From Gemmatimonadota bacterium (GTDB lineage Bacteria; Gemmatimonadota; Gemmatimonadetes; Gemmatimonadales; Gemmatimonadaceae): 17,236 nucleotides of DNA. The stretch covers positions 1-17,236 of the forward strand of contig PLMM01000159.1 of NCBI GenBank assembly GCA_003142495.1. Direction: 5' to 3'. The notes beneath the pieces were generated by a model. The model was not told the origin of the DNA. It ran no database searches and saw only the letters and a program-made list of their open reading frames with translations. Shown piece after piece: positions 2,106-13,654 of this stretch. Position 1 is the first letter of the stretch, and each line of letters begins with the position of its first letter. The position numbers were made by a program, and so were the translations under genes.

Positions 2106-2993
2106 ATGACAACGATTGCGACCGTCGGCGTGCTCGGCGGAGGACTCATGGGCTCTGGCATCGCGCAGGTTGCGGCGGTGAATGGATTCAAGACCATCGT
2201 GCGCGAAGTGGATGACGCGTCGGCGGCACGCGCGCGCGCGAGCATCGAGAAGTCGCTGGCCAAGGCGATCGAGAAGGGGAAGCTCACCGAGCAGGCACGC
2301 ACGGAGACGCTCGGCCGGCTGACGTTCACGACGAAGGTCGCGGATCTCGCGCCGGCGGACATCGTGGTCGAGGCCATTGTCGAGGATCTCGAGCTCAAGA
2401 ACGCGATCTGGAAGGAGCTCAACGCGCTGTGCGCGGCGCACACGATCTTCGCGTCGAACACGTCGAGCCTCACGATTGCCGCGATGGCGGCGGCAGGCGG
2501 GCGCGGCGACCGGATGGTGGGGCTGCACTTCTTCAATCCGGTTCCGGTGATGAAGCTCGTCGAGGTCGTGAAGACCGTGACGACGAGCGACGAGACGTTC
2601 ACGCGCGCCTTCGAGTTCGCGAAGATGCTCAAGAAGGAGCCGATCGCGGCGAAGGACAACTCGGGCTTCGTCGTGAATCTGCTGCTCGTGCCCTACCTGC
2701 TCGACGCGATCAACGCGCTGGAGCACGGCGTCGCGAGCGTCGAGGACATCGATAAGGGGATGATGCTGGGCACGGGCTACCCGATGGGGCCGTTCACGCT
2801 GCTCGACTTCGTCGGGCTCGACACCACATACAAGATCGCCGAGATCATGTTCGACGAGTATCGCGAGAAGCGCTATGCGCCGCCGCCGCTGCTCAAGCGA
2901 ATGGTGCTCGCGGGCTACTATGGTAAGAAGTCGAAGCGGGGGTTCTATGACTACAGCGTGGAGCCGCCGGTGGTGAGCAAGCTGGGGTTGTAG
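2106..2993 (+). CDS. hbd: 3-hydroxybutyryl-CoA dehydrogenase
   Basis: A 295-residue cytosolic enzyme of the 3-hydroxyacyl-CoA dehydrogenase family, the usual length for the single-function form. It interconverts acetoacetyl-CoA and 3-hydroxybutyryl-CoA (or longer 3-ketoacyl/3-hydroxyacyl pairs) with NAD(P)H. The N-terminal Rossmann fold shows VGVLGGGLMGSGIA (residues 7-20). The catalytic set is visible: Ser120 in SNTSS, His141 in HFFNP, Glu153 in KLVEVV and Asn191 in DNSGFVVN, with the same spacing as characterised Hbd proteins. The C-terminal helical domain carries GYPMGPFTLLDFVGLD. The start ATG has no Shine-Dalgarno but follows a pyrimidine tract. With the upstream thiolase it gives two consecutive steps of acetoacetyl-CoA metabolism, usable in beta-oxidation, butanoate or polyhydroxybutyrate routes; the direction is not determinable here. 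Confidence 0.94.
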   Translation: MTTIATVGVLGGGLMGSGIAQVAAVNGFKTIVREVDDASAARARASIEKSLAKAIEKGKLTEQARTETLGRLTFTTKVADLAPADIVVEAIVEDLELKNAIWKELNALCAAHTIFASNTSSLTIAAMAAAGGRGDRMVGLHFFNPVPVMKLVEVVKTVTTSDETFTRAFEFAKMLKKEPIAAKDNSGFVVNLLLVPYLLDAINALEHGVASVEDIDKGMMLGTGYPMGPFTLLDFVGLDTTYKIAEIMFDEYREKRYAPPPLLKRMVLAGYYGKKSKRGFYDYSVEPPVVSKLGL

Positions 2994-5715: not shown

Positions 5716-6465
5716 GTGTACTACTACGAGCCGCGCATTACCCTCCTCGCGAAGCCGACCTTCACCGCACCCGAGCACCTCGACGTCGCGTGGATCGGTG
5801 AGAGCACCGCCGGCGAGCAGCTCGCCGAGTTCGCGGGGCGCCTTTGTTACATGAGCCAGAAGAATCCCGCGGGGCGCACCACGCGGGCTTACCTCGAGAA
5901 CATCAAGAAGCAGGGGCACGGGAGCGTTCTCGAGCACGCGAGCTATTCGCTGCTCTTCGAGGGCGTCAGCCGCTCGCTGACGCATGAGCTGGTGCGTCAC
6001 CGAGCGGGCTTCGCCTACTCCCAGCTCTCACAGCGCTACGTCGACGAGAAGGACGCGAGCTTCGTCGTGCCGCCGGCGGTAGCGGGCGACGAAGCGCTCG
6101 AGGGCGCATGGCGCAGCCAGGTGGACGGCGCGCTCGCGAGCTATATCGGGCTCGTCGAGCAGCTGATGGAGCGTTACTCGTGGGTGGCCGACAAAGTCCA
6201 TCGGCGGAAGATGGCGCGCGAGGCCGCTCGCGGCGTGCTGCCGAACTCCACGGAGACGAAGATCGTGGTGACGGCGAACGCTCGCGCCTGGCGAACGATG
6301 CTGGAGCTGCGGTCGAGCGAGGGCGCGGAGCTGGAGATTCGGCGGCTGGCGGTGGCGACGCTGCGGCTGCTCGCGGCGGAGGCAGAGGGATTCTTTTCGG
6401 ACTTCGAGATCTACGTCGGCGACGATCGGCGAGAAGCGGCGCGAGTCGGATTTCACAAAGTGTGA
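5716..6465 (+). CDS. thyX: FAD-dependent thymidylate synthase ThyX
   Basis: The 249-residue protein starts with GTG. It makes dTMP from dUMP using methylene-tetrahydrofolate and NADPH, with FAD carrying the reducing equivalents, and works as a cytosolic homotetramer. The ThyX signature is present as RHRAGFAYSQLSQRY (residues 94-108), preceded by GHGSVLEHASYS (68-78) whose His residues help FAD binding. Downstream, KMAREAARGVLPNSTET and RAWRTMLELRSSEGAELEIR carry the expected Arg and substrate-contact positions. The signature has one more residue between RHR and the Tyr than the mycobacterial form as I recall it, a spacing tolerated in the family. The organism probably relies on ThyX rather than ThyA, though only the whole genome could show that. 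Confidence 0.95.
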   Translation: MYYYEPRITLLAKPTFTAPEHLDVAWIGESTAGEQLAEFAGRLCYMSQKNPAGRTTRAYLENIKKQGHGSVLEHASYSLLFEGVSRSLTHELVRHRAGFAYSQLSQRYVDEKDASFVVPPAVAGDEALEGAWRSQVDGALASYIGLVEQLMERYSWVADKVHRRKMAREAARGVLPNSTETKIVVTANARAWRTMLELRSSEGAELEIRRLAVATLRLLAAEAEGFFSDFEIYVGDDRREAARVGFHKV

Positions 6466-6467
6466 AA
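6451..6467. promoter_or_regulatory. Perfect inverted repeat TTTCACA-AAG-TGTGAAA over the thyX stop
   Basis: A 7-base perfect inverted repeat with a 3-base centre spans the last codons and the TGA (6463-6465) of thyX. It is AT-rich with no T-run after it, so it is a weak terminator candidate. The symmetry resembles an operator for a dimeric regulator, and it lies about 28 bases upstream of a possible promoter for the ATP-grasp gene. Function is inference. Confidence 0.45.
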
Positions 6468-6494
6468 TAAAGTCCGCGCACAAGCAAAAAATCA

Positions 6495-6523
6495 TTGCGC
6501 TGCATTTCATCGACTCTTAATTT
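6495..6523 (+). promoter_or_regulatory. Possible sigma-70-type promoter for the ATP-grasp/kamA block
   Basis: TTGCGC (6495-6500) and TAATTT (6518-6523) are separated by 17 bases, within the 215-base spacer between thyX and the first ATP-grasp gene. This spacer is less GC-rich than its surroundings. It would leave a leader of about 150 bases. Housekeeping promoters of this group are poorly known to me, so this is only a candidate. Confidence 0.3.
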
Positions 6524-6680
6524 GCTCGCACGTTCGATGTCGGAGTCACCGTTGCTTCAGGTTAGAGCAGCGAGATGTGAACGATTCGAGCGAGATGCGC
6601 GTCAATTGAAAAGAGCACGGCGCGCGGGTTGGGTGGCGGCGAGTGTTCGACCGGAATTGTCTGACCTCAAGCAGGATCGG

Positions 6681-7904
6681 ATGACACGAATCGGGTTCGC
6701 CTACAATCAGAAGCCTGAAGTACCTGCTCTTCGTCTCGAGGACGGCGCCGAGGATGCGCGTCCCGACGAAGAGCCTCCCAGTAGCGCAAACTCCAATTGG
6801 GGGAGCGCTGCGGATTCCGCGTCTGCCCCGCTCGCTGGCGGAATAGCCGCCGCCGAAGTCGACGACGAGTTCGCGGAGTGGGACAGCGCCGAGACCATCA
6901 ATGCGGTCGCGAATGCGCTCAGCGCGCTCGGCGAAGTAGTTCGCCTCGAGGCGAACGCGGACTTCCCCGAGCGCCTGCGGGCGACTCAGCCGGACATCGT
7001 CTACAACATCGCGGAAGGAATGGGCGGCGTGAATCGCGAAGCCCACGTCCCCGCAATATGCGAATTCTTCGGCATCCCATATTCGGGATCCGATCCGTTC
7101 TCGCTCTCGCTATGCCTCGACAAGGCGCGCGCGAAAGAGTTTTTGGCGTACCACGGCGTACCGACGGCGCCCTTCGCGCTCATCCGGACCGCCGCCGAGA
7201 TCCCCGCGATGCTCGACCGCCTCACCACGCGCAAGACGAGGAGCGGCAGCACGCGCCTTCGCCTTCCGCTGTTCGTGAAGCCGGTGCACGAGGGCTCGTC
7301 CAAGGGAATCACGGAAGACAATTATTGCCGCACGGTGAGCGAGGCGCAGGAGCAAACTGCGTTTCTTCTCGAGCGGTACGCGCAGCCCGTGCTGGTGGAG
7401 GAGTATCTCCCCGGCCGTGAGTTCACCTGCGCGGTGATGGGTAACGGCGACGGCTCGCACGTATTGCCGATCGTCGGGATGAACTTCGATGCCCTGCCAC
7501 CAGGTGCGCTTCCGGTGTACGGCTTCGAAGCCAAGTGGCTCTGGGACGACCGGAGCCACCCGTTACAGATTTTTGAGTGCCCTGCGCGGATCGACGAGGT
7601 GCTGCGGAGCAGGATCGTAGAGGTCGTGCTCTCCGCCTACCAGGTTCTCGGCTGCCGTGATTGGTCGCGCATCGATGTGCGACTCGATGCTTCTGGCGTG
7701 CCGAACGTGGTGGAAGTGAATCCCCTTCCGGGAATCCTTCCCCGTCCCGAGGACAACTCGTGCTTTCCCAAAGCGGCGCGGGCAGCCGGATTGAGCTACG
7801 ATGAGCTCATCCAGCGCTCCCTGCGTTTCGCCGCGGAGCGACAGGGGATCACCCTGTCGGGAAAGGCTGCGCGTCGAGTGCGACGTGCAGCGGCGTCGGG
7901 CTGA
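6681..7904 (+). CDS. ATP-grasp ligase, D-Ala-D-Ala-ligase-like (first of pair)
   Basis: A 407-residue protein; ATG 6681 is chosen because AGGA lies 4 bases upstream and the conserved start (MTRIGFAYNQ) begins there, although the frame stays open to 6495. The ATP-grasp fold is clear: LFVKPVHEGSSKGI (197-210), VEEYLPGREFTCAV (239-252), and metal ligands Asp332 (SRIDVR), Glu345 and Asn347 in VEVNPLPG. These enzymes activate a carboxylate as acyl-phosphate and join it to an amine. It lacks the GGxSxEREVS start and the HGxxGEDG block of true Ddl; it has VYNIAEGMGG (107-116) instead, so a cell-wall Ddl role is unlikely. Residues about 13-60 are an acidic Ser/Ala/Pro-rich insertion. It lies 58 bases before the second ligase. 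Confidence 0.88.
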   Translation: MTRIGFAYNQKPEVPALRLEDGAEDARPDEEPPSSANSNWGSAADSASAPLAGGIAAAEVDDEFAEWDSAETINAVANALSALGEVVRLEANADFPERLRATQPDIVYNIAEGMGGVNREAHVPAICEFFGIPYSGSDPFSLSLCLDKARAKEFLAYHGVPTAPFALIRTAAEIPAMLDRLTTRKTRSGSTRLRLPLFVKPVHEGSSKGITEDNYCRTVSEAQEQTAFLLERYAQPVLVEEYLPGREFTCAVMGNGDGSHVLPIVGMNFDALPPGALPVYGFEAKWLWDDRSHPLQIFECPARIDEVLRSRIVEVVLSAYQVLGCRDWSRIDVRLDASGVPNVVEVNPLPGILPRPEDNSCFPKAARAAGLSYDELIQRSLRFAAERQGITLSGKAARRVRRAAASG

Positions 7905-7908
7905 TCGC

Positions 7909-7920
7909 GCGAAGCTTCGC
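7909..7920. repeat. 12-base perfect palindrome GCGAAGCTTCGC after the ligase stop
   Basis: GCGAAGCTTCGC starts 5 bases past the TGA of the first ligase and reads the same on both strands. It may be a symmetric protein site or, with no loop, a weak hairpin; no T-run follows, so it is not a classic terminator. Confidence 0.4.
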
Positions 7921-7962
7921 TCCGGATTTCGCGCGTCGCCCCACCACGAGGCGGGGATGTAA

Positions 7963-9024
7963 ATGAAAATTGCTCTTTTGTTCGACGGCGCATCAGCGCT
8001 CGGCAAGTCGCCCGATCTGGCCATCCTCGAGACCGTCGAGGCCGTCGAAGCGGTGCTCGCGGCCGAGGGAAACAAGGTCGTGCGCGTGCCGGTGAACACG
8101 GACGGCCGCTGGATCGAGCGCACGCGCCGCACCAAGTGTGACGTCGCCTTCAATCTCTGCGAGGGGATCGACGGCGTGGCCGAGCTCGAGCCCACCGTCA
8201 TTTCCGCGCTCGAGGTGCTCGGCATTCCGTTCACGGGCAGCTCGTCGTGGACCACCTCGCTCTGCCTGCGCAAGCACGTCGTCAACGCGATCCTCGATCG
8301 CTGCCGCCTCCCGATTCCGCGCTTCGCGATCGTGCGCCGCGGCGACCCGATTCCCGCCGTCGGCTTTCCGGCGATCTGCAAGCCGGCCGCCGAGGATGCA
8401 TCAGTGGGCGTCGAGCAGCGCTCGGTGGTGCGCACCGCACGCGCGTTGGCCGAGCGCGTGAACTCGATGCACGAGCGGTGGGGCGAGGTGATCGTCCAGC
8501 GCTACATCGACGGGCGCGAGGTGAACGTCGGCATCGTCGGCGACACGGTGCTGCCGGTGTCGGAGATTCAGTTCGACGCGATGCCCAAGGGAATGTGGCG
8601 CATCGTGTCGTACCGCTCGAAGTGGGCGTCGGGGAGCGATGAAGACTCGGGCGCGCAGCCGCAGTGCCCGGCGAATCTCTCCACGGAGCTCACCGAGGAG
8701 CTGCAGCGCATCGCGCTCCAGGCGTGGCAAGTCGTCGGCGGCGACGGCTACGGCCGCGTCGACTTCCGCATCGATCGCGCGGGGAAGCCGTGGATCCTCG
8801 AGGTGAACTCGAATCCCGACATCTCGCCGGACGCGGGGCTCGCGCGAATGGCCGGCGTCGAGGGGCTCGACTACGGCGCGCTCGTGCGCGCGATCTGCGA
8901 GCGCGGGCTGCACCGCGAGCGGCCGTCCACCTCCGACCAGTGGGCGCTCGCGCAGCGGCTCTCCGGCGTCATGGTCGAAGAGCAGGGCGCGGCGCTCGAG
9001 CTGTTCGCCGTCGGGCAGCGCTGA
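7963..9024 (+). CDS. ATP-grasp ligase, D-Ala-D-Ala-ligase-like (second of pair)
   Basis: A 353-residue ligase, clearly diverged from the first. It starts MKIALLFDG with GGGG 6 bases upstream. Visible parts are an N-terminal Rossmann-like domain ending in AFNLCEGIDG (62-71, equivalent to the first enzyme's YNIAEG), ICKPAAEDASVGV (138-150; ATP-contact Lys140), VQRYIDGREVNVGIVGD (178-194), and metal ligands Asp267 (GRVDFR), Glu280 and Asn282 in LEVNSNPDIS. The family forms amide or ester bonds through acyl-phosphate intermediates. The canonical Ddl N-terminal Glu/Ser motif is absent, so the substrate is open. A second in-frame TGA follows 12 bases after the first because CGCTGAGCG is duplicated (9019-9027, 9031-9039). 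Probably the same operon as its neighbours. Confidence 0.88.
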   Translation: MKIALLFDGASALGKSPDLAILETVEAVEAVLAAEGNKVVRVPVNTDGRWIERTRRTKCDVAFNLCEGIDGVAELEPTVISALEVLGIPFTGSSSWTTSLCLRKHVVNAILDRCRLPIPRFAIVRRGDPIPAVGFPAICKPAAEDASVGVEQRSVVRTARALAERVNSMHERWGEVIVQRYIDGREVNVGIVGDTVLPVSEIQFDAMPKGMWRIVSYRSKWASGSDEDSGAQPQCPANLSTELTEELQRIALQAWQVVGGDGYGRVDFRIDRAGKPWILEVNSNPDISPDAGLARMAGVEGLDYGALVRAICERGLHRERPSTSDQWALAQRLSGVMVEEQGAALELFAVGQR

Positions 9025-9038
9025 GCGGCACGCTGAGC

Positions 9039-9057
9039 GCCGGGCGAGCAGCCCGGC
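9039..9057 (+). promoter_or_regulatory. GC-rich stem-loop between ligase 2 and GNAT
   Basis: GCCGGGC (9039-9045) and GCCCGGC (9051-9057) form a perfect 7-base-pair stem with the loop GAGCA. It starts 15 bases after the ligase stop. No U-tract follows, so it is more likely a processing, attenuation or mRNA-stability element than an intrinsic terminator. If the GNAT gene starts upstream of 9075, this sequence would instead be coding. Confidence 0.4.
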
Positions 9058-9074
9058 TCGTTGGTCCGCTCGCG

Positions 9075-9548
9075 TTGCACCATCGCGAGCGCCTCGTCGA
9101 GATTCTCGAAGCGACGGGCGTTTTTGCACCCTCGGAGATCGACGTCGCGCTCGAGCTCTTCGACGAAGGGATGCGGAGCGCCGAGTCGTACGAGCTGATG
9201 GGCGTGTTCGACGAGCACGGGGCGCTGCAGGGCTACGCGTGCTGGGGCCCGACGCCGGGCACCGATGGTGGATACGACCTTTACTGGATCGCGGTGGATG
9301 CGCGCGCGCACGGCGGCGGCTACGGGAGCGCGATGATGCGCGCAGTGGAGGAGCTGCTGCGGGGACGCGGCGCTCGGCTGCTCGTGGCGGAGACGTCGTC
9401 GCGCGACGTGTACGCGCAGACGCGCGACTTCTACGAGCGCGGCGGATACGTGGAACGTGCGCGCGTTCGCGGGTTCTATGCTGTGGATGACGATCGCGTG
9501 ATTTTCTCGAAGCAGCTGGCGGTGCGCGCCGGCGAGGAGACGCCATGA
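9075..9548 (+). CDS. GNAT-family N-acetyltransferase
   Basis: GNAT fold enzyme that transfers an acetyl group from acetyl-CoA to an amine. From TTG 9075 it is 157 residues. The acetyl-CoA pyrophosphate loop is RAHGGGYGS (77-85), preceded by the strand DLYWIAVDA and followed by RLLVAETSSRDVYAQTRDFYERGGY, the usual beta5/alpha4 part. The start is uncertain: similarity to GNAT N-termini (RLVGPL, coded from about 9049) extends upstream of 9075. There, only CTG codons (9021, 9033) or a GTG at 8940 deep inside ligase 2 could serve. The stop overlaps the kamA start (ATGA), implying coupled translation. Acetylation of beta-lysine or of the ligase product is a reasonable guess. It is much shorter than AblB beta-lysine acetyltransferases, so I do not name it ablB. 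Confidence 0.82.
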   Translation: MHHRERLVEILEATGVFAPSEIDVALELFDEGMRSAESYELMGVFDEHGALQGYACWGPTPGTDGGYDLYWIAVDARAHGGGYGSAMMRAVEELLRGRGARLLVAETSSRDVYAQTRDFYERGGYVERARVRGFYAVDDDRVIFSKQLAVRAGEETP

Positions 9549-10615
9549 GTGAGTGGCAGAAGGTTCTGCGCGAAGGGAGCGTGGACACACTCGAGAAGCT
9601 GGCCGAGAAGTTCGGCCGCGACGTGATCGACGTCGAGGCGCTGCGGCCGGCGTTCGACGGCTTCCAGGTGCGGATCACTCCGGCGGCGCTCGAGCAGATC
9701 AAGGAAGTCGGCGATCCGATGTGGAACCAGTACGTGCCGACGATCCGCGAGCTCGAGATAGTGGATGGCGTCGTCGACTCGCTCGACGAAGATGGTGACT
9801 CGCCGGTTCCGAACATCACGCATCGCTATCCGGACCGTGTTCTGTTTCTCGTGAGCCCGGTATGCGCGTCGTACTGCCGCTTCTGCACGCGGCGCCGGAA
9901 GGTCGGCGACCCCGAGAAGATTCCGCTCAACCAGTACGACTCGGCCTTCGCCTACATCGCGGCGCATCCGGAGATTCGCGATGTGATTCTCTCCGGCGGC
10001 GACCCGATGATGCTCTCGGACCGGCGGATCGAGCACATCCTGCAGAAGCTGCGCGAGATCCCGCACGTCGAGATCATCCGCATCGGAAGCCGGATCACGT
10101 CACATTTGCCAGAGCGGATCACGCCCGAGTTCTGCGAGATGGTGCAGAAGTACCATCCTATCTACATGAACACGCACTTCAATCACCCGAGCGAGCTCAC
10201 GCCGGCTGCGGTCGCGTCGCTCGATCGGCTCTCGCGCGCGGGTGTGGTGCTCGGCTGTCAGACGGTGCTGCTCAAGGGCGTGAACGACGATCCGAAGGTG
10301 ATGATGAAGCTGATGCACGAGCTGCTGAAGGCGCGCGTGCGTCCGTACTACATCTACATGGCCGACCAGGTGGCGGGGGGCGAGCACTTCCGCACGATGG
10401 TCCAGACCGGGCTCGAGATCATCAATGCGCTTCGCGGATGGACGTCGGGGCTCGCGGTGCCGCACTTCGTCATCGACGCTCCGGGCGGCGGTGGCAAGGT
10501 GCCGCTCCTCCCCGAGTACGTCGAGTCGATCACCGATGACGAGGTGATCTTCCGCAACTATCAGGGGGAGCGATTCACCTACAAGCAGCCAAGGATCGCG
10601 ATAGCAGCTGAGTAG
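9545..10615 (+). CDS. kamA: Lysine 2,3-aminomutase (radical SAM, PLP)
   Basis: A 356-residue radical-SAM enzyme converting L-lysine to L-beta-lysine with a 4Fe-4S cluster, S-adenosylmethionine and PLP. The cluster cysteines are Cys107, Cys111 and Cys114 in CASYCRFC, and GGDP (151-154) is present. The clostridial residues Asp293, Asp330 and Lys337 (lysine side-chain contacts and PLP Schiff base, known from the family) align by motif and spacing with Asp274 (IYMADQ), Asp311 and Lys318 (DAPGGGGK). The 37- and 7-residue spacings are identical. This favours lysine over glutamate as substrate and KamA over the EF-P modifier EpmB, which lacks the PGGGGK block. The C-terminal zinc-binding tail of the clostridial enzyme is missing. 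Translation is probably coupled to the GNAT by ATGA. Confidence 0.93.
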   Translation: MSEWQKVLREGSVDTLEKLAEKFGRDVIDVEALRPAFDGFQVRITPAALEQIKEVGDPMWNQYVPTIRELEIVDGVVDSLDEDGDSPVPNITHRYPDRVLFLVSPVCASYCRFCTRRRKVGDPEKIPLNQYDSAFAYIAAHPEIRDVILSGGDPMMLSDRRIEHILQKLREIPHVEIIRIGSRITSHLPERITPEFCEMVQKYHPIYMNTHFNHPSELTPAAVASLDRLSRAGVVLGCQTVLLKGVNDDPKVMMKLMHELLKARVRPYYIYMADQVAGGEHFRTMVQTGLEIINALRGWTSGLAVPHFVIDAPGGGGKVPLLPEYVESITDDEVIFRNYQGERFTYKQPRIAIAAE

Positions 10616-10625
10616 CCGGCGCTCG

Positions 10626-11168
10626 CTAGTGCGCAGGTGCCTTCACGTTCGCGTAGTCGAAGTCCAGGGTTGCCAACAGAATGTCCTGATCGACGATTTC
10701 ACGAACGGGCAGGCCGCTCCTCGGCGATATCCAGATCTTCGTTCTCCGCCCTGACTCCATTTTGAAGTCGTAGCCTGTTGCCGTTTCACCGCGAATCGAG
10801 GCGGCGGGGAGCGGCCGACAGTCGCTGAAGCCGTTTAGCGGACCAGTGAAGCCGCCCATTGGATTGTTGGTTACGAGCGCATGCGCCCAGCGCCCGTCGC
10901 CGAGCTTCGTGTACATCGTCTTGTCGACCCAAATCTCCTCGTGGTGCTCCGTCGGGAAGGCACCGGGCGTTGCAGGCGTGACTGTGTAAGTGGCGTGAAA
11001 TGGCGTCTTCGACTGCAGTGTGGCCGCTTTCGTCGCTGCCGCGCAGCCTGCGGCGCCGGCGCGCGCCGAGTCTGGAGTGCCCAACGCGATGCCGACGACA
11101 ACGACCGCGAGCGCCACGAATTGGGTCGTCTTCGCGAACGGTGGCGAGTCAGAGCCTTTGATGCGCAT
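10626..11168 (-). CDS. Exported LolA-like small protein, unknown function
   Basis: The 180-residue protein starts at the ATG whose first base is 11168, set by a strong GAGGAG six bases upstream (11175-11180). The N-terminus has a Sec-type signal: Lys/Arg at the start, hydrophobic core FVALAVVVVGIALG and a likely cut after SARA. The mature part is beta-rich (HATYTVTP, EEIWVDKTMYTKLGDGRW, KIWISPRSGLPVREIVDQD, ending LDFDYANVKAP). This resembles the LolA/LolB-type open barrel found in many periplasmic proteins of unknown role; the fold call is inference. It converges on kamA with a 10-base gap and is the last of three minus-strand exported genes. Confidence 0.8.
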   Translation of the reverse strand: MRIKGSDSPPFAKTTQFVALAVVVVGIALGTPDSARAGAAGCAAATKAATLQSKTPFHATYTVTPATPGAFPTEHHEEIWVDKTMYTKLGDGRWAHALVTNNPMGGFTGPLNGFSDCRPLPAASIRGETATGYDFKMESGRRTKIWISPRSGLPVREIVDQDILLATLDFDYANVKAPAH

Positions 11169-11174
11169 GATGAT

Positions 11175-11180
11175 CTCCTC
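11175..11180 (-). promoter_or_regulatory. Strong Shine-Dalgarno GAGGAG for the LolA-like gene
   Basis: On the minus strand GAGGAG precedes ATG (first base 11168) by 6 bases. It is the best ribosome site in the window and rules against the longer frame that begins further upstream at 11219. Confidence 0.75.
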
Positions 11181-11243
11181 AGGGAAAGTGTGCGGATTGC
11201 GATCGCTGCTCCGCCGCACGGCCGAGCCGAATGGACTGCCCTG

Positions 11244-13097
11244 CTACTCGCATCCCGGATTGCACGCCTTCATCTCGATCGTGTACACGGCCAGATTCTG
11301 GTTCGCCGGACGCTCTCGCGTCGCCGTTTTCTCGATCAGCATGGTCTTCCCCTTCGTCTCCACATCGTAGTCGCCCTTCACGACCTGGTTGAGAATGAAG
11401 GCGGCCTTCACGTAGGGGAGCGTGAAATGCCCCATCAGCGGCAGCCCGAGCGTGCGCTGCGCGATGACGACGAAGAAGGTGTGCCCCTGCGTGTACGACT
11501 CGTTGAAGTCGGAGCGCGCATCGCCGAGCGCGATGGTCATCTTGCTGCCGTCGAGCGTGCCCGTGAGCGGGATGTAGAACGACGTAGGTGAGATGAGCGA
11601 GTTCACCATTCCGCCGGCGCCATTGTCCGTCGCGGCGGGTGCGACATCCTTGGTGAGATACTCACCCGGACCGAACATGTTGCTGCCGAACAGGCTGCTC
11701 GTGAAGACGTTCGACTTGTAGGTGAAGCGTGTCGCTCCGCCCTCGAGCTGGCCGCTCAACGCCACGGCCTTTCCCGTGGCGCCCTTCGGATACCGAAGCG
11801 TGATTTTTCCCTTGACCGCGGTGGAGTAGGTCCACCATTCGGTTGGCTTGCCGTCGCCATTCGCCTTGCTGTAGAAGTGCGCGAGCATCGTCGCCGTGAA
11901 GTCGCCTTCGAACTTCTCGCAATACTTCCCGAAGAGCTGCTCGTTCGCGTACGCGACCACCGCGCCAGCAAGACTCGTCGCCTTGTCGAGCATGTCGATC
12001 GGGCTCTTCGTGCCGTCGACGATCGTGGGCAACCACTTCTTCGACTCCTCGACTGCGAACTTGTAGCCGGGCGTGTGCCGCACCGGTTCCGGAATCCGCT
12101 CCACCATCTTCTCGGCGATCTCCTGTTCGGGTCCGAGCTCCAGCTCATTCTCGGCCAGCGATTCCGCAGGCTTGCCGGCGGCAGTGGGAAGATTTTTCAC
12201 GAGCCCCCCAATGGCGTCGGCACCGGGGCCAGCTTTCGCCGGGAGCTCCGACTTCGCCATGTTCGTCCCGAACGATGCCGCGAACTGCCACGGTTTCTTC
12301 GCGATGCCGATCATGTCCGGAACTGCCTTGAGCGCTTGCGTCGCATGATCGATGGCATCACACGTCTGCGAGCCCTTCTGGCTCTCCGCAATCTCCTGGT
12401 CGAGCTCGACCTTGCTCTTCTTCATCTGGTCGTCGAGCTGCGACAGATGATCGAACATGGGCTGCAGCGTTTGCTCGGCGTCCGGCTGCTGCGTGACCAT
12501 GTTCTTGAACGGCGCCAGCGCCGCGGCGAGGTGCGTGCTCTGATCCGCGATCGGCTTTTCTGCCTCGTCTAGCGCGTCGAGCTTCGTCTCCATGTCGGTC
12601 TTGGCGGGAGAATCCGGGACGCTCTCCACCTCCTTCTTCACGGCCGTCACGAGCTTGTCGACATCCTCGAGAAACGACTTGTTGTCCGCGACGTCCTCGT
12701 CGATATCGATCAGGTACGTTTGCACGGTGAACTGCGCGAGCGCAGCGCCCGACTTCGCGCCCGCCTGCGCGCTCACCTTGTAGACACCGGCAGCTCTCGT
12801 CGAGCCGAAGGTGATGGCGTAGTTGCCATCCTTGTCCTGTGGCGCGAGGAGCATGGAAGGACCGCCGGATGGAGGCGTCACCGTCACGTGCACCTGCACG
12901 CCGGGTTGTGGATAGGCCATCCCCGAGATCTTGACTGTGCCGTTCGTGGGTATCTCGGCAGCCGAGAGTACGAGTGTCACCGCGGGATCGCTCGCATTGA
13001 GCGCGGGAGCTTGGGCGGCGAGTGGTGCTGCACAGGCACATGCCACAACGAACGCCAGCGCTCCCGAAACCGATAACGCCTTCACTATTATGGACAC
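11244..13097 (-). CDS. Large exported protein with Ig-like N-terminus, unknown function
   Basis: 617 residues from the GTG whose first base is 13097. It has AGAGGA about 5 bases upstream and gives a compact signal peptide (SIIVKALSVSGALAFVV, cut near LAAQA). A GTG at 13142, overlapping the previous stop as GTGA, would add 15 acidic-rich residues and spoil the signal. About 38-126 is an Ig-like beta domain (TLVLSAAEIPTNGTVKISG; GVQVHVTVTPPSGG). A highly charged helical stretch follows, about 130-255 (DNKSFLEDVDKLVTAVKKEV; DDQMKKSKVELDQEI), and probably forms coiled coil. The C-terminal third is beta-rich (GKITLRYPKG; MTIALGDARSDF) and ends with CNPGCE. Periplasmic or surface location is likely; no catalytic motif seen, family not recognised. 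Confidence 0.8.
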   Translation of the reverse strand: MSIIVKALSVSGALAFVVACACAAPLAAQAPALNASDPAVTLVLSAAEIPTNGTVKISGMAYPQPGVQVHVTVTPPSGGPSMLLAPQDKDGNYAITFGSTRAAGVYKVSAQAGAKSGAALAQFTVQTYLIDIDEDVADNKSFLEDVDKLVTAVKKEVESVPDSPAKTDMETKLDALDEAEKPIADQSTHLAAALAPFKNMVTQQPDAEQTLQPMFDHLSQLDDQMKKSKVELDQEIAESQKGSQTCDAIDHATQALKAVPDMIGIAKKPWQFAASFGTNMAKSELPAKAGPGADAIGGLVKNLPTAAGKPAESLAENELELGPEQEIAEKMVERIPEPVRHTPGYKFAVEESKKWLPTIVDGTKSPIDMLDKATSLAGAVVAYANEQLFGKYCEKFEGDFTATMLAHFYSKANGDGKPTEWWTYSTAVKGKITLRYPKGATGKAVALSGQLEGGATRFTYKSNVFTSSLFGSNMFGPGEYLTKDVAPAATDNGAGGMVNSLISPTSFYIPLTGTLDGSKMTIALGDARSDFNESYTQGHTFFVVIAQRTLGLPLMGHFTLPYVKAAFILNQVVKGDYDVETKGKTMLIEKTATRERPANQNLAVYTIEMKACNPGCE

Positions 13098-13138
13098 TGA
13101 TTCCTCTTGCTCAATGTTTGTCGTGAATGCCCGCGCGC

Positions 13139-13654
13139 TCACGGAGCCGCCCGAAGCAGCTTCTTGCAGAGATTCCCAATGCGATCCTCGAGCACGTCGT
13201 CGGATGGATCGGTGAAGTCACCCTCCGTTCCCAGCACGGAGATGTCGCAGAGCACATCGTTGCGTTCGGCGATGACCTCATGCAGGTCGCGCTGCCACGC
13301 GGCGCGATCACCAACGTCATAGAGGGGCCTCGCCTCGAGCGGCATCGTGCCGGACACCCAGGCGCGCACCGTGGCCTTGCCGCGCGAGGGCCGCAGGGTG
13401 ATCTCGATTTGTGGGCGCGAGGCGGTGACGAAGGCGCAGCTTTCGGGGTCGCCGGAGATGAGCGCGATACCGGTGATTGGAGCGCGGAGAATGCCGACTA
13501 CGTCGCGCGCGCTTAGAAGTCCGCGCTCGCAAGGGCTCCCAGGCACATGGGTACGAGGGGCGCTGTCCCCGCTGAGGCAGCTGAGCACCACCCAGGCACA
13601 TGCGATCCCGGCCGTAGACGCCCAGCGATGAAGTTGCCGTGTGAGTGCTTGCAT
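13139..13654 (-). CDS. Small exported or lipid-anchored protein, unknown function
   Basis: 171 residues from the ATG with first base 13654; a GTG at 13699 is possible but has no better ribosome site. The N-terminus RQLHRWASTAGIACAWVVLSCLSG reads as an export signal. A Cys in VLSC may be lipidated, although the lipobox is atypical (Leu at -2). The mature part contains a repeated-looking segment with ESCAFVTASRPQIEITLRPS and a late Cys pair (VLCDIS, NLCKK). This is compatible with a small disulfide-stabilised domain, somewhat like DUF3558-type lipoproteins, though I cannot claim that family. It is first in the minus-strand trio, 41 bases before the large exported protein, and divergent from the BTAD regulator. 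Confidence 0.68.
   Translation of the reverse strand: MQALTRQLHRWASTAGIACAWVVLSCLSGDSAPRTHVPGSPCERGLLSARDVVGILRAPITGIALISGDPESCAFVTASRPQIEITLRPSRGKATVRAWVSGTMPLEARPLYDVGDRAAWQRDLHEVIAERNDVLCDISVLGTEGDFTDPSDDVLEDRIGNLCKKLLRAAP

Follow-up and report, generated by a model that had tools for sequence, protein, structure and literature searches.

In blasticidin S-type clusters, a ligase couples a beta-amino acid as an amide. The osmolyte N-acetylglutaminylglutamine amide (NAGGN) is made as an acetylated dipeptide without a carrier; unlike the locus described here, its synthesis is not known to involve a beta-amino acid or KamA. The osmolyte N-acetyl-beta-lysine is the product of AblA/AblB, a lysine 2,3-aminomutase (LAM) acting with a GNAT-type N-acetyltransferase. 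Here we describe a block of four genes, lig1, lig2, GNAT and kamA, in a genome of the Gemmatimonadaceae (Gemmatimonadota; assembly GCA_003142495.1, contig PLMM01000159.1), which encode two ligases similar to D-alanine--D-alanine ligase (Ddl), an N-acetyltransferase and a KamA-family aminomutase. The window, meaning the whole stretch of DNA analysed, comprises 17,236 nucleotides. We consider it reasonably probable that the block encodes a complete pathway to an amide of beta-lysine that needs no carrier, with KamA and lig1 as its core and with lig2 and GNAT elaborating the product.

Similar to the block, the blasticidin-type cluster of NZ_CP108290 contains a KamA-family aminomutase gene, blsG, near a gene for an ATP-dependent carboxylate-amine ligase. 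Unlike in the block, this aminomutase is of the arginine type (T330), the partner is a nucleoside and the genes belong to an antibiotic cluster; the ligase is only faintly similar to lig1 and lig2 (best blastp E 1.8e-5). The combination of an aminomutase with a carrier-free ligase has a precedent in clusters of the blasticidin type. The block shares with AblA/AblB the pairing of a lysine 2,3-aminomutase with a GNAT, and differs from it in a GNAT without an AblB match, in two extra ligases and in a KamA without the C-terminal domain.

The conservation of the block was examined with a lig1 profile built from 16 proteins and searched in a public genome collection, from which the best 80 of 493 candidate stretches were taken. 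Together with the window and 35 loci from genome searches, these gave 116 loci. Among the best 80, the loci belong to Gemmatimonadota and to records titled Bacteroidetes, Melioribacter, Kryptonia/Kryptoniota, Thermokryptus and Chrysopegis. The complete order lig1-lig2-GNAT-kamA, with steps below 2.5 kb, was present in 84 of the 116 loci (the window and Gemmatimonadota-titled records account for 54, other named records for 10 and genomes of a second sample, introduced below, for 20). Near full-length matches to all four genes were found in 72 of the 84; kamA is cut by the locus end in six (L024, L049, L060, L062, L077 and L081), and an internally short or weak match occurs in another six (L053, L059, L072, L082, L083 and L093). 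The 32 incomplete loci comprise sixteen that end early, one undecided (L067), nine without GNAT, one without kamA and five with lig1 alone. Two loci, L109 and L110, duplicate L072 and L096, and all other lig1 sequences are non-identical. Median gaps between aligned gene ends were 39, 27 and 25 bp, as in an operon. The twelve flank proteins scanned at seven block loci differ from locus to locus (three are next to RecG, others next to NusG, amylase, dehydroquinate synthase or further proteins), so that the unit appears to consist of the four genes. The block is no chance neighbourhood.

Two samples of genomes were searched for co-occurrence, 121 genomes of the Gemmatimonadota phylum (lig1 at E <1e-100) and 198 genomes of the phylum of G121 (lig1 at E <1e-77). 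In the first sample lig1 was present in 41 of the 121 genomes, lig2 adjoined it in 41/41 and KamA was linked in 35/41; G076, in which lig2 is at the end of a contig, was scored as unlinked. KamA was found anywhere in 40 of the 41 genomes with lig1 versus 7 of the 80 without it (Fisher 1.4e-23), and in the second sample in 33/34 genomes with lig1 (28 linked) versus 35/164 without (Fisher 1.8e-17); both Fisher values overstate the association, because related genomes are not independent. Five genomes of the second sample have no lig2 or GNAT beside the lig1-like ligase, and KamA lies elsewhere in all five; in two of them, G205 and G259, a single additional ligase match lies elsewhere. The four KamA proteins checked from these lig1-only genomes share 55-64% identity with a block KamA, and D293 and D330 are present in 4/4. 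Since these five genomes retain KamA, as do nine loci without GNAT, the main partner of KamA is apparently lig1. The sequence-only reading of the window had proposed an association of the ligases with KamA and a gene-neighbourhood survey to examine it; the linkage is strongly recurrent (84/116 loci), and the genome-level co-occurrence in both samples agrees with it.

The KamA of the window was compared with characterised aminomutases. Its best NCBIfam model is the lysine AblA model TIGR03820 (421 bits, below the cut-off of 525), which is also the best model for three other block KamAs tested. The protein matches the solved LAM structure 2a5h (E 1.4e-107); the alignment reaches LAM residue 368, 7 residues before the protein itself ends, and the C-terminal zinc/multimerisation domain is missing. 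With this and its score, the protein is not filed as an AblA equivalog. Aminomutases of this family have the radical S-adenosylmethionine (SAM) motif CxxxCxxC, a lysine for pyridoxal 5'-phosphate (PLP), here Lys337, and Arg134. Of 93 block KamAs, the 84 with a length of 300 aa or more (a set that differs from the 84 complete loci) were aligned and showed C125, C129, C132 and R134 in 84/84 and K337 in 80/84 (one R, three gaps). Asp293 and Asp330, which we take to read the side-chain amine of lysine, were present in 83 and 82 of the 84, the remainder being gaps. The reference residues at 293/330 are D/D in AblA, D/T in BlsG and D/C in a rhizobial KamA. In a hand-chosen tree of 42 rows (27 from the block and 15 others), the block KamAs form one clade (100/100). 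An arginine 2,3-aminomutase of the BlsG type was rejected for the block KamA, which has D330 instead of T330 and a clade apart from BlsG (100/100). These residues, the reference comparison and the tree uphold the lysine type assigned earlier, and strongly suggest that the block KamA would make beta-lysine from L-lysine. In two rhizobial plasmids (L197 5965-8424 and L198 4491-7095), a KamA with Cys at 330 adjoins an ATP-grasp protein of another family.

Both ligases possess the Ddl residues for ATP and Mg binding, and the structure model of lig2 shows the Ddl fold; the best PDB relatives of lig1 are Ddl (E 5e-33). Residues were scored in 28 hand-picked ligase pairs from the 116 loci. Lys97, Lys144, Lys215, Arg255, Asp257 and Asn272 are intact in 28/28 lig1 and 28/28 lig2. 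Unlike in Ddl, His63 and Tyr216 are absent, being replaced by H63E and Y216W in every lig1 and lig2 scored. The ligases differ from each other at the acceptor side: lig1 retains S150/G276/S281, with Gly276 and Ser281 of the second D-alanine (D-Ala2) site in 28/28, whereas lig2 carries G149D, S150A and G276D, with D276 in 28/28, A281 in 22/28 and S281 in 6/28. In a hand-chosen tree of 90 rows, where the long branch of L163_x (a misread frame) was disregarded, lig1 and lig2 fall outside the Ddl clade, and the rows of both split into Gemmatimonadota and Bacteroidota-type groups. The genome of the window encodes a separate canonical Ddl, which ruled out that one of the ligases is the only Ddl of the organism. 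Residues, tree and canonical Ddl thus favour the earlier view of two diverged Ddl-like ligases, neither of them the Ddl of the organism. The exchange H63E was tried as a mark of beta-lysine and dropped, since it is common to paralogues away from KamA.

Further relatives of these ligases were observed in other contexts. A diverged Ddl-like ligase lies upstream of an amidase in the genome of the window itself (contig C358; L146 5523-9812). In Gemmatimonadota, a third ligase related to lig2 overlaps the gene before it, which weakly matches Peptidase_Mx (L147 4414-6446 and L150 5102-7125), with no KamA near. Lone lig1-like ligases in L127, L134, L135 and L136 are each preceded by an open reading frame (ORF) of 129-159 aa; in L127, L134 and L136 this ORF has no Pfam match and an RsmB-like gene follows the ligase.

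The 16 GNATs compared from both phyla share 25 invariant columns. The best PDB match of the GNAT family profile is 2r7h, annotated as 'Putative D-alanine N-acetyltransferase' (E 5.9e-48), and relatives of the 2r7h protein are named from Desulfovibrio and Planctomycetota. For plasmid-borne GNAT relatives in Nostoc, Aquisphaera and Pseudonocardia, the annotation shows neither a ligase nor KamA within 6 kb. Among the listed GNAT matches, 6 of 120 bear the JGI name 'D-alanine-D-alanine ligase', which hints at linkage; the ligase-GNAT fusion that it also suggested was rejected, as no fused ORF was present in the 116 loci. Blastp of the window GNAT against Bacillus velezensis AblB gave no match at E up to 10, and the AblB model was absent among the 18 NCBIfam families matched by the 16 GNATs, where it was not checked whether the library holds such a model. 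On these two results, the identity of the GNAT with AblB was rejected. For four loci with no GNAT in the block (L027, L038, L040 and L056), and for L053 as well, the genome carries a GNAT of this family on a different contig.

The coordinates of the block and of thyX are given in the table. The four genes are co-directional, and the ATGA overlap of GNAT and kamA, read directly from the window sequence at 9545-9548, confirms the arrangement first described. The GNAT homologue P0121 opens with V at the position of CTG 9033, and from the lig2 stop up to 9075 the GNAT reading frame showed no ATG, GTG or TTG. The absence of a non-ribosomal peptide synthetase (NRPS) or carrier protein, also claimed from the sequence, was borne out in the window genes scanned: in Pfam scans, neither the ten window genes up to 10615 nor the twelve flank proteins showed an NRPS, a carrier or a condensation domain.

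Features of the block and its upstream neighbour in the window
Feature	Position	Strand	Description
lig1	6681..7904	+	407 aa Ddl-like ATP-grasp ligase; PF07478 121 bits, 5e-35
lig2	7963..9024	+	353 aa Ddl-fold ATP-grasp ligase, altered acceptor site; PF07478 104.5 bits
GNAT	9033..9548	+	N-acetyltransferase; PF00583/PF13508; start codon unsure (CTG 9033 or TTG 9075)
kamA	9545..10615	+	356 aa, LAM_C + Radical_SAM; lysine-type 2,3-aminomutase, radical SAM + PLP
thyX	5716..6465	+	TIGR02170; upstream syntenic neighbour in Gemmatimonadota

In the proposed pathway, KamA, as a radical SAM enzyme with PLP, would shift the alpha-amino group of L-lysine to C3 and so form beta-lysine. The ligase lig1 would then activate a carboxylate as acyl phosphate and couple it to an amine, with beta-lysine as one half of a dipeptide-like amide; lig1 is taken as the first amide-forming enzyme because it is lig1, and not lig2, that accompanies KamA in the reduced sets. 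Having a changed acceptor-carboxylate site, lig2 may add a second unit, probably onto an amine of the lig1 product. Finally, the GNAT would acetylate one amine, as a decoration that may be optional or supplied in trans. Linkage, co-occurrence and intact catalytic residues come from sequence, and the predicted product and role are built on them. Because the flanks scanned showed no exporter, carrier or regulator as a constant neighbour of the block, the most natural role of the end product, as a guess, would be cytosolic, for example as a compatible solute.

A simpler arrangement resembles the block. In the loci L151, L164-L167 and L171, a ligase with H63E is followed by kamA downstream; unlike in the block, one ligase only is present, and the lineage is another. 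In the second sample, 49 genomes had a ligase match (34 lig1, 13 pair type, G282 and G288), from which the 13 of the pair type were picked by hand; KamA is present in 13/13 and linked in 11, and no KamA was found at E 1e-60 in G282 and G288. Six pair-type KamAs group with BlsG (99/97 in the 42-row tree), yet 6/6 have Q293/D330 and not D/T. For the KamA of L151 the arginine model ranks first by a small margin (466 bits versus 451 for the lysine model), all models being under their cut-off. The pair ligases (L151 5100-7259, L164-L167 and L171) have T276 and no W216. It is conceivable, as a tentative generalisation that we would not yet favour, that Ddl-like ligases with H63E and KamA-family aminomutases constitute an undescribed modular class, in which minimal pairs use beta-lysine or, for example, beta-arginine, and the four-gene cassette, as the expanded form in Gemmatimonadota and Bacteroidota-type phyla, leads to a conserved N-acetylated beta-lysine oligoamide with the character of a primary metabolite.

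Several observations weigh against a dedicated beta-lysine amide pathway, in addition to the non-independence of the genomes counted. Nine loci keep kamA next but have no GNAT in the block, and the GNAT was not found anywhere in the genomes of L022, L023, L025, L037 and L043, which as drafts may be incomplete. Conversely, L044 possesses lig1-lig2-GNAT with no KamA match in its genome, and three of the 40 genomes counted with KamA (G041, G088 and G106) have it solely below the family cut-off and unlinked. The block KamA scores below the AblA equivalog cut-off and is without the C-terminal domain. The lysine AblA model is also best for the rhizobial KamA without Asp330, therefore model rank alone proves little. 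In the ligase tree, lig1 as a single clade is weakly supported (27/15), and paralogues remote from KamA nest within the lig2 clade.

An unlikely but serious alternative is that the set makes N-acetyl-beta-lysine with a GNAT other than AblB, and that the ligases serve a separate purpose. The lysine-type KamA and its overlap with the GNAT in the window fit this explanation, and adjacent AblA and AblB genes are a known arrangement (PMC2821294); however, the GNAT has no AblB match by blastp or NCBIfam, and it is the gene most often absent where ligases and kamA are present. A secreted bioactive or metal-binding peptide, such as an antibiotic or a siderophore, instead of a cytosolic metabolite appears somewhat less probable again. 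Beta-lysine and beta-arginine are found in antibiotics, which counts for it, as does the plasmid of Thioflavicoccus, where a related ligase, KamA and diaminopropionate genes of the SbnA/ornithine-cyclodeaminase type are united. Nonetheless, no export or resistance gene was recognised in the twelve flank proteins of the seven block loci or in the window genes scanned, and the gene order is common across phyla despite varied neighbours. The plasmid locus itself (L108 3557-9038) encodes a diaminobutyrate (DABA) aminotransferase, SbnA, an ornithine cyclodeaminase-like protein, a Ddl-like ligase and, on the opposite strand, KamA, and is likely a diamino-acid peptide cluster.

Modification of peptidoglycan precursors by the ligases as Ddl variants, with beta-lysine as a wall component, is improbable. 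The closest PDB relatives of the ligases are indeed Ddl, but the genome has its separate canonical Ddl, the ligases branch apart from the Ddl clade, and H63E/Y216W in all sampled ligases and the changed D-Ala2 site of lig2 also disagree with that function. About equally improbable, or slightly more so, is lysine catabolism, in which KamA would start the degradation of beta-lysine and the other genes would be bystanders. LAM works in lysine degradation in other bacteria (PMC2821294), and a 3-hydroxybutyryl-CoA dehydrogenase is encoded upstream in the window (2106-2993); against this, the neighbours scanned included no further recognisable gene of beta-lysine degradation, and at the level of whole genomes the ligases occur together with KamA. 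N-acetyl-beta-lysine alone, wall modification and catabolism are therefore weak explanations. The least credible alternative is that KamA feeds the beta-lysylation of elongation factor P (EF-P), with a ligase replacing EpmA. KamA resembles EpmB/YjeK in being without a C-terminal domain, a feature given for the latter in PMC2821294. Nevertheless, this route was rejected because the modifiable Lys34 is Asn in 6/6 block-bearing genomes with an above-cut-off match (eight given, with none in G000 and G016). G013 has an additional EF-P relative, a weaker match, in which Lys is likewise missing at that position, and the EpmB model scores far under the lysine model for KamA. Asn is also found at the Lys34 position in 7/10 genomes without the block.

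Carrier-free synthesis of a beta-lysine amide by the four genes would likely be a new small-molecule pathway. The four-gene set was not reported in the open-access literature searched (titles and abstract openings, among the matches listed). A 2009 survey of ATP-grasp amidoligases may already include neighbourhoods of this kind. Where the proteins are named at all, protein searches mostly return D-alanine--D-alanine ligase, hypothetical protein and GNAT/RimI-like acetyltransferase, and because the members are named one by one, annotation hardly reveals the pathway. Should the proposal be true, a third of the sampled Gemmatimonadota genomes (41/121) and a sixth of the second sample (34/198, five with lig1 alone) would make a beta-lysine amide, and the ligase family would offer a small set of enzymes with which beta-amino acids can be linked in the absence of a carrier protein.

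Outside the block, thyX precedes lig1 by no more than 1.5 kb in 55 of the 72 loci with room for it (L017-L096), and was not matched in ten non-Gemmatimonadota loci checked; it is probably not a member of the pathway. No Rfam family was matched at gathering score within 6400-11300. The source assembly has 3.22 Mb in 431 contigs and is 84.5% complete, and the nearest named relatives of the window are metagenome-assembled genomes of Gemmatimonadota, several of them titled Gemmatimonadaceae. Downstream of kamA, the reverse strand (11244-13142) encodes an ORF of 632 aa that has no NCBIfam match and whose N-terminus looks secretion-like by eye.

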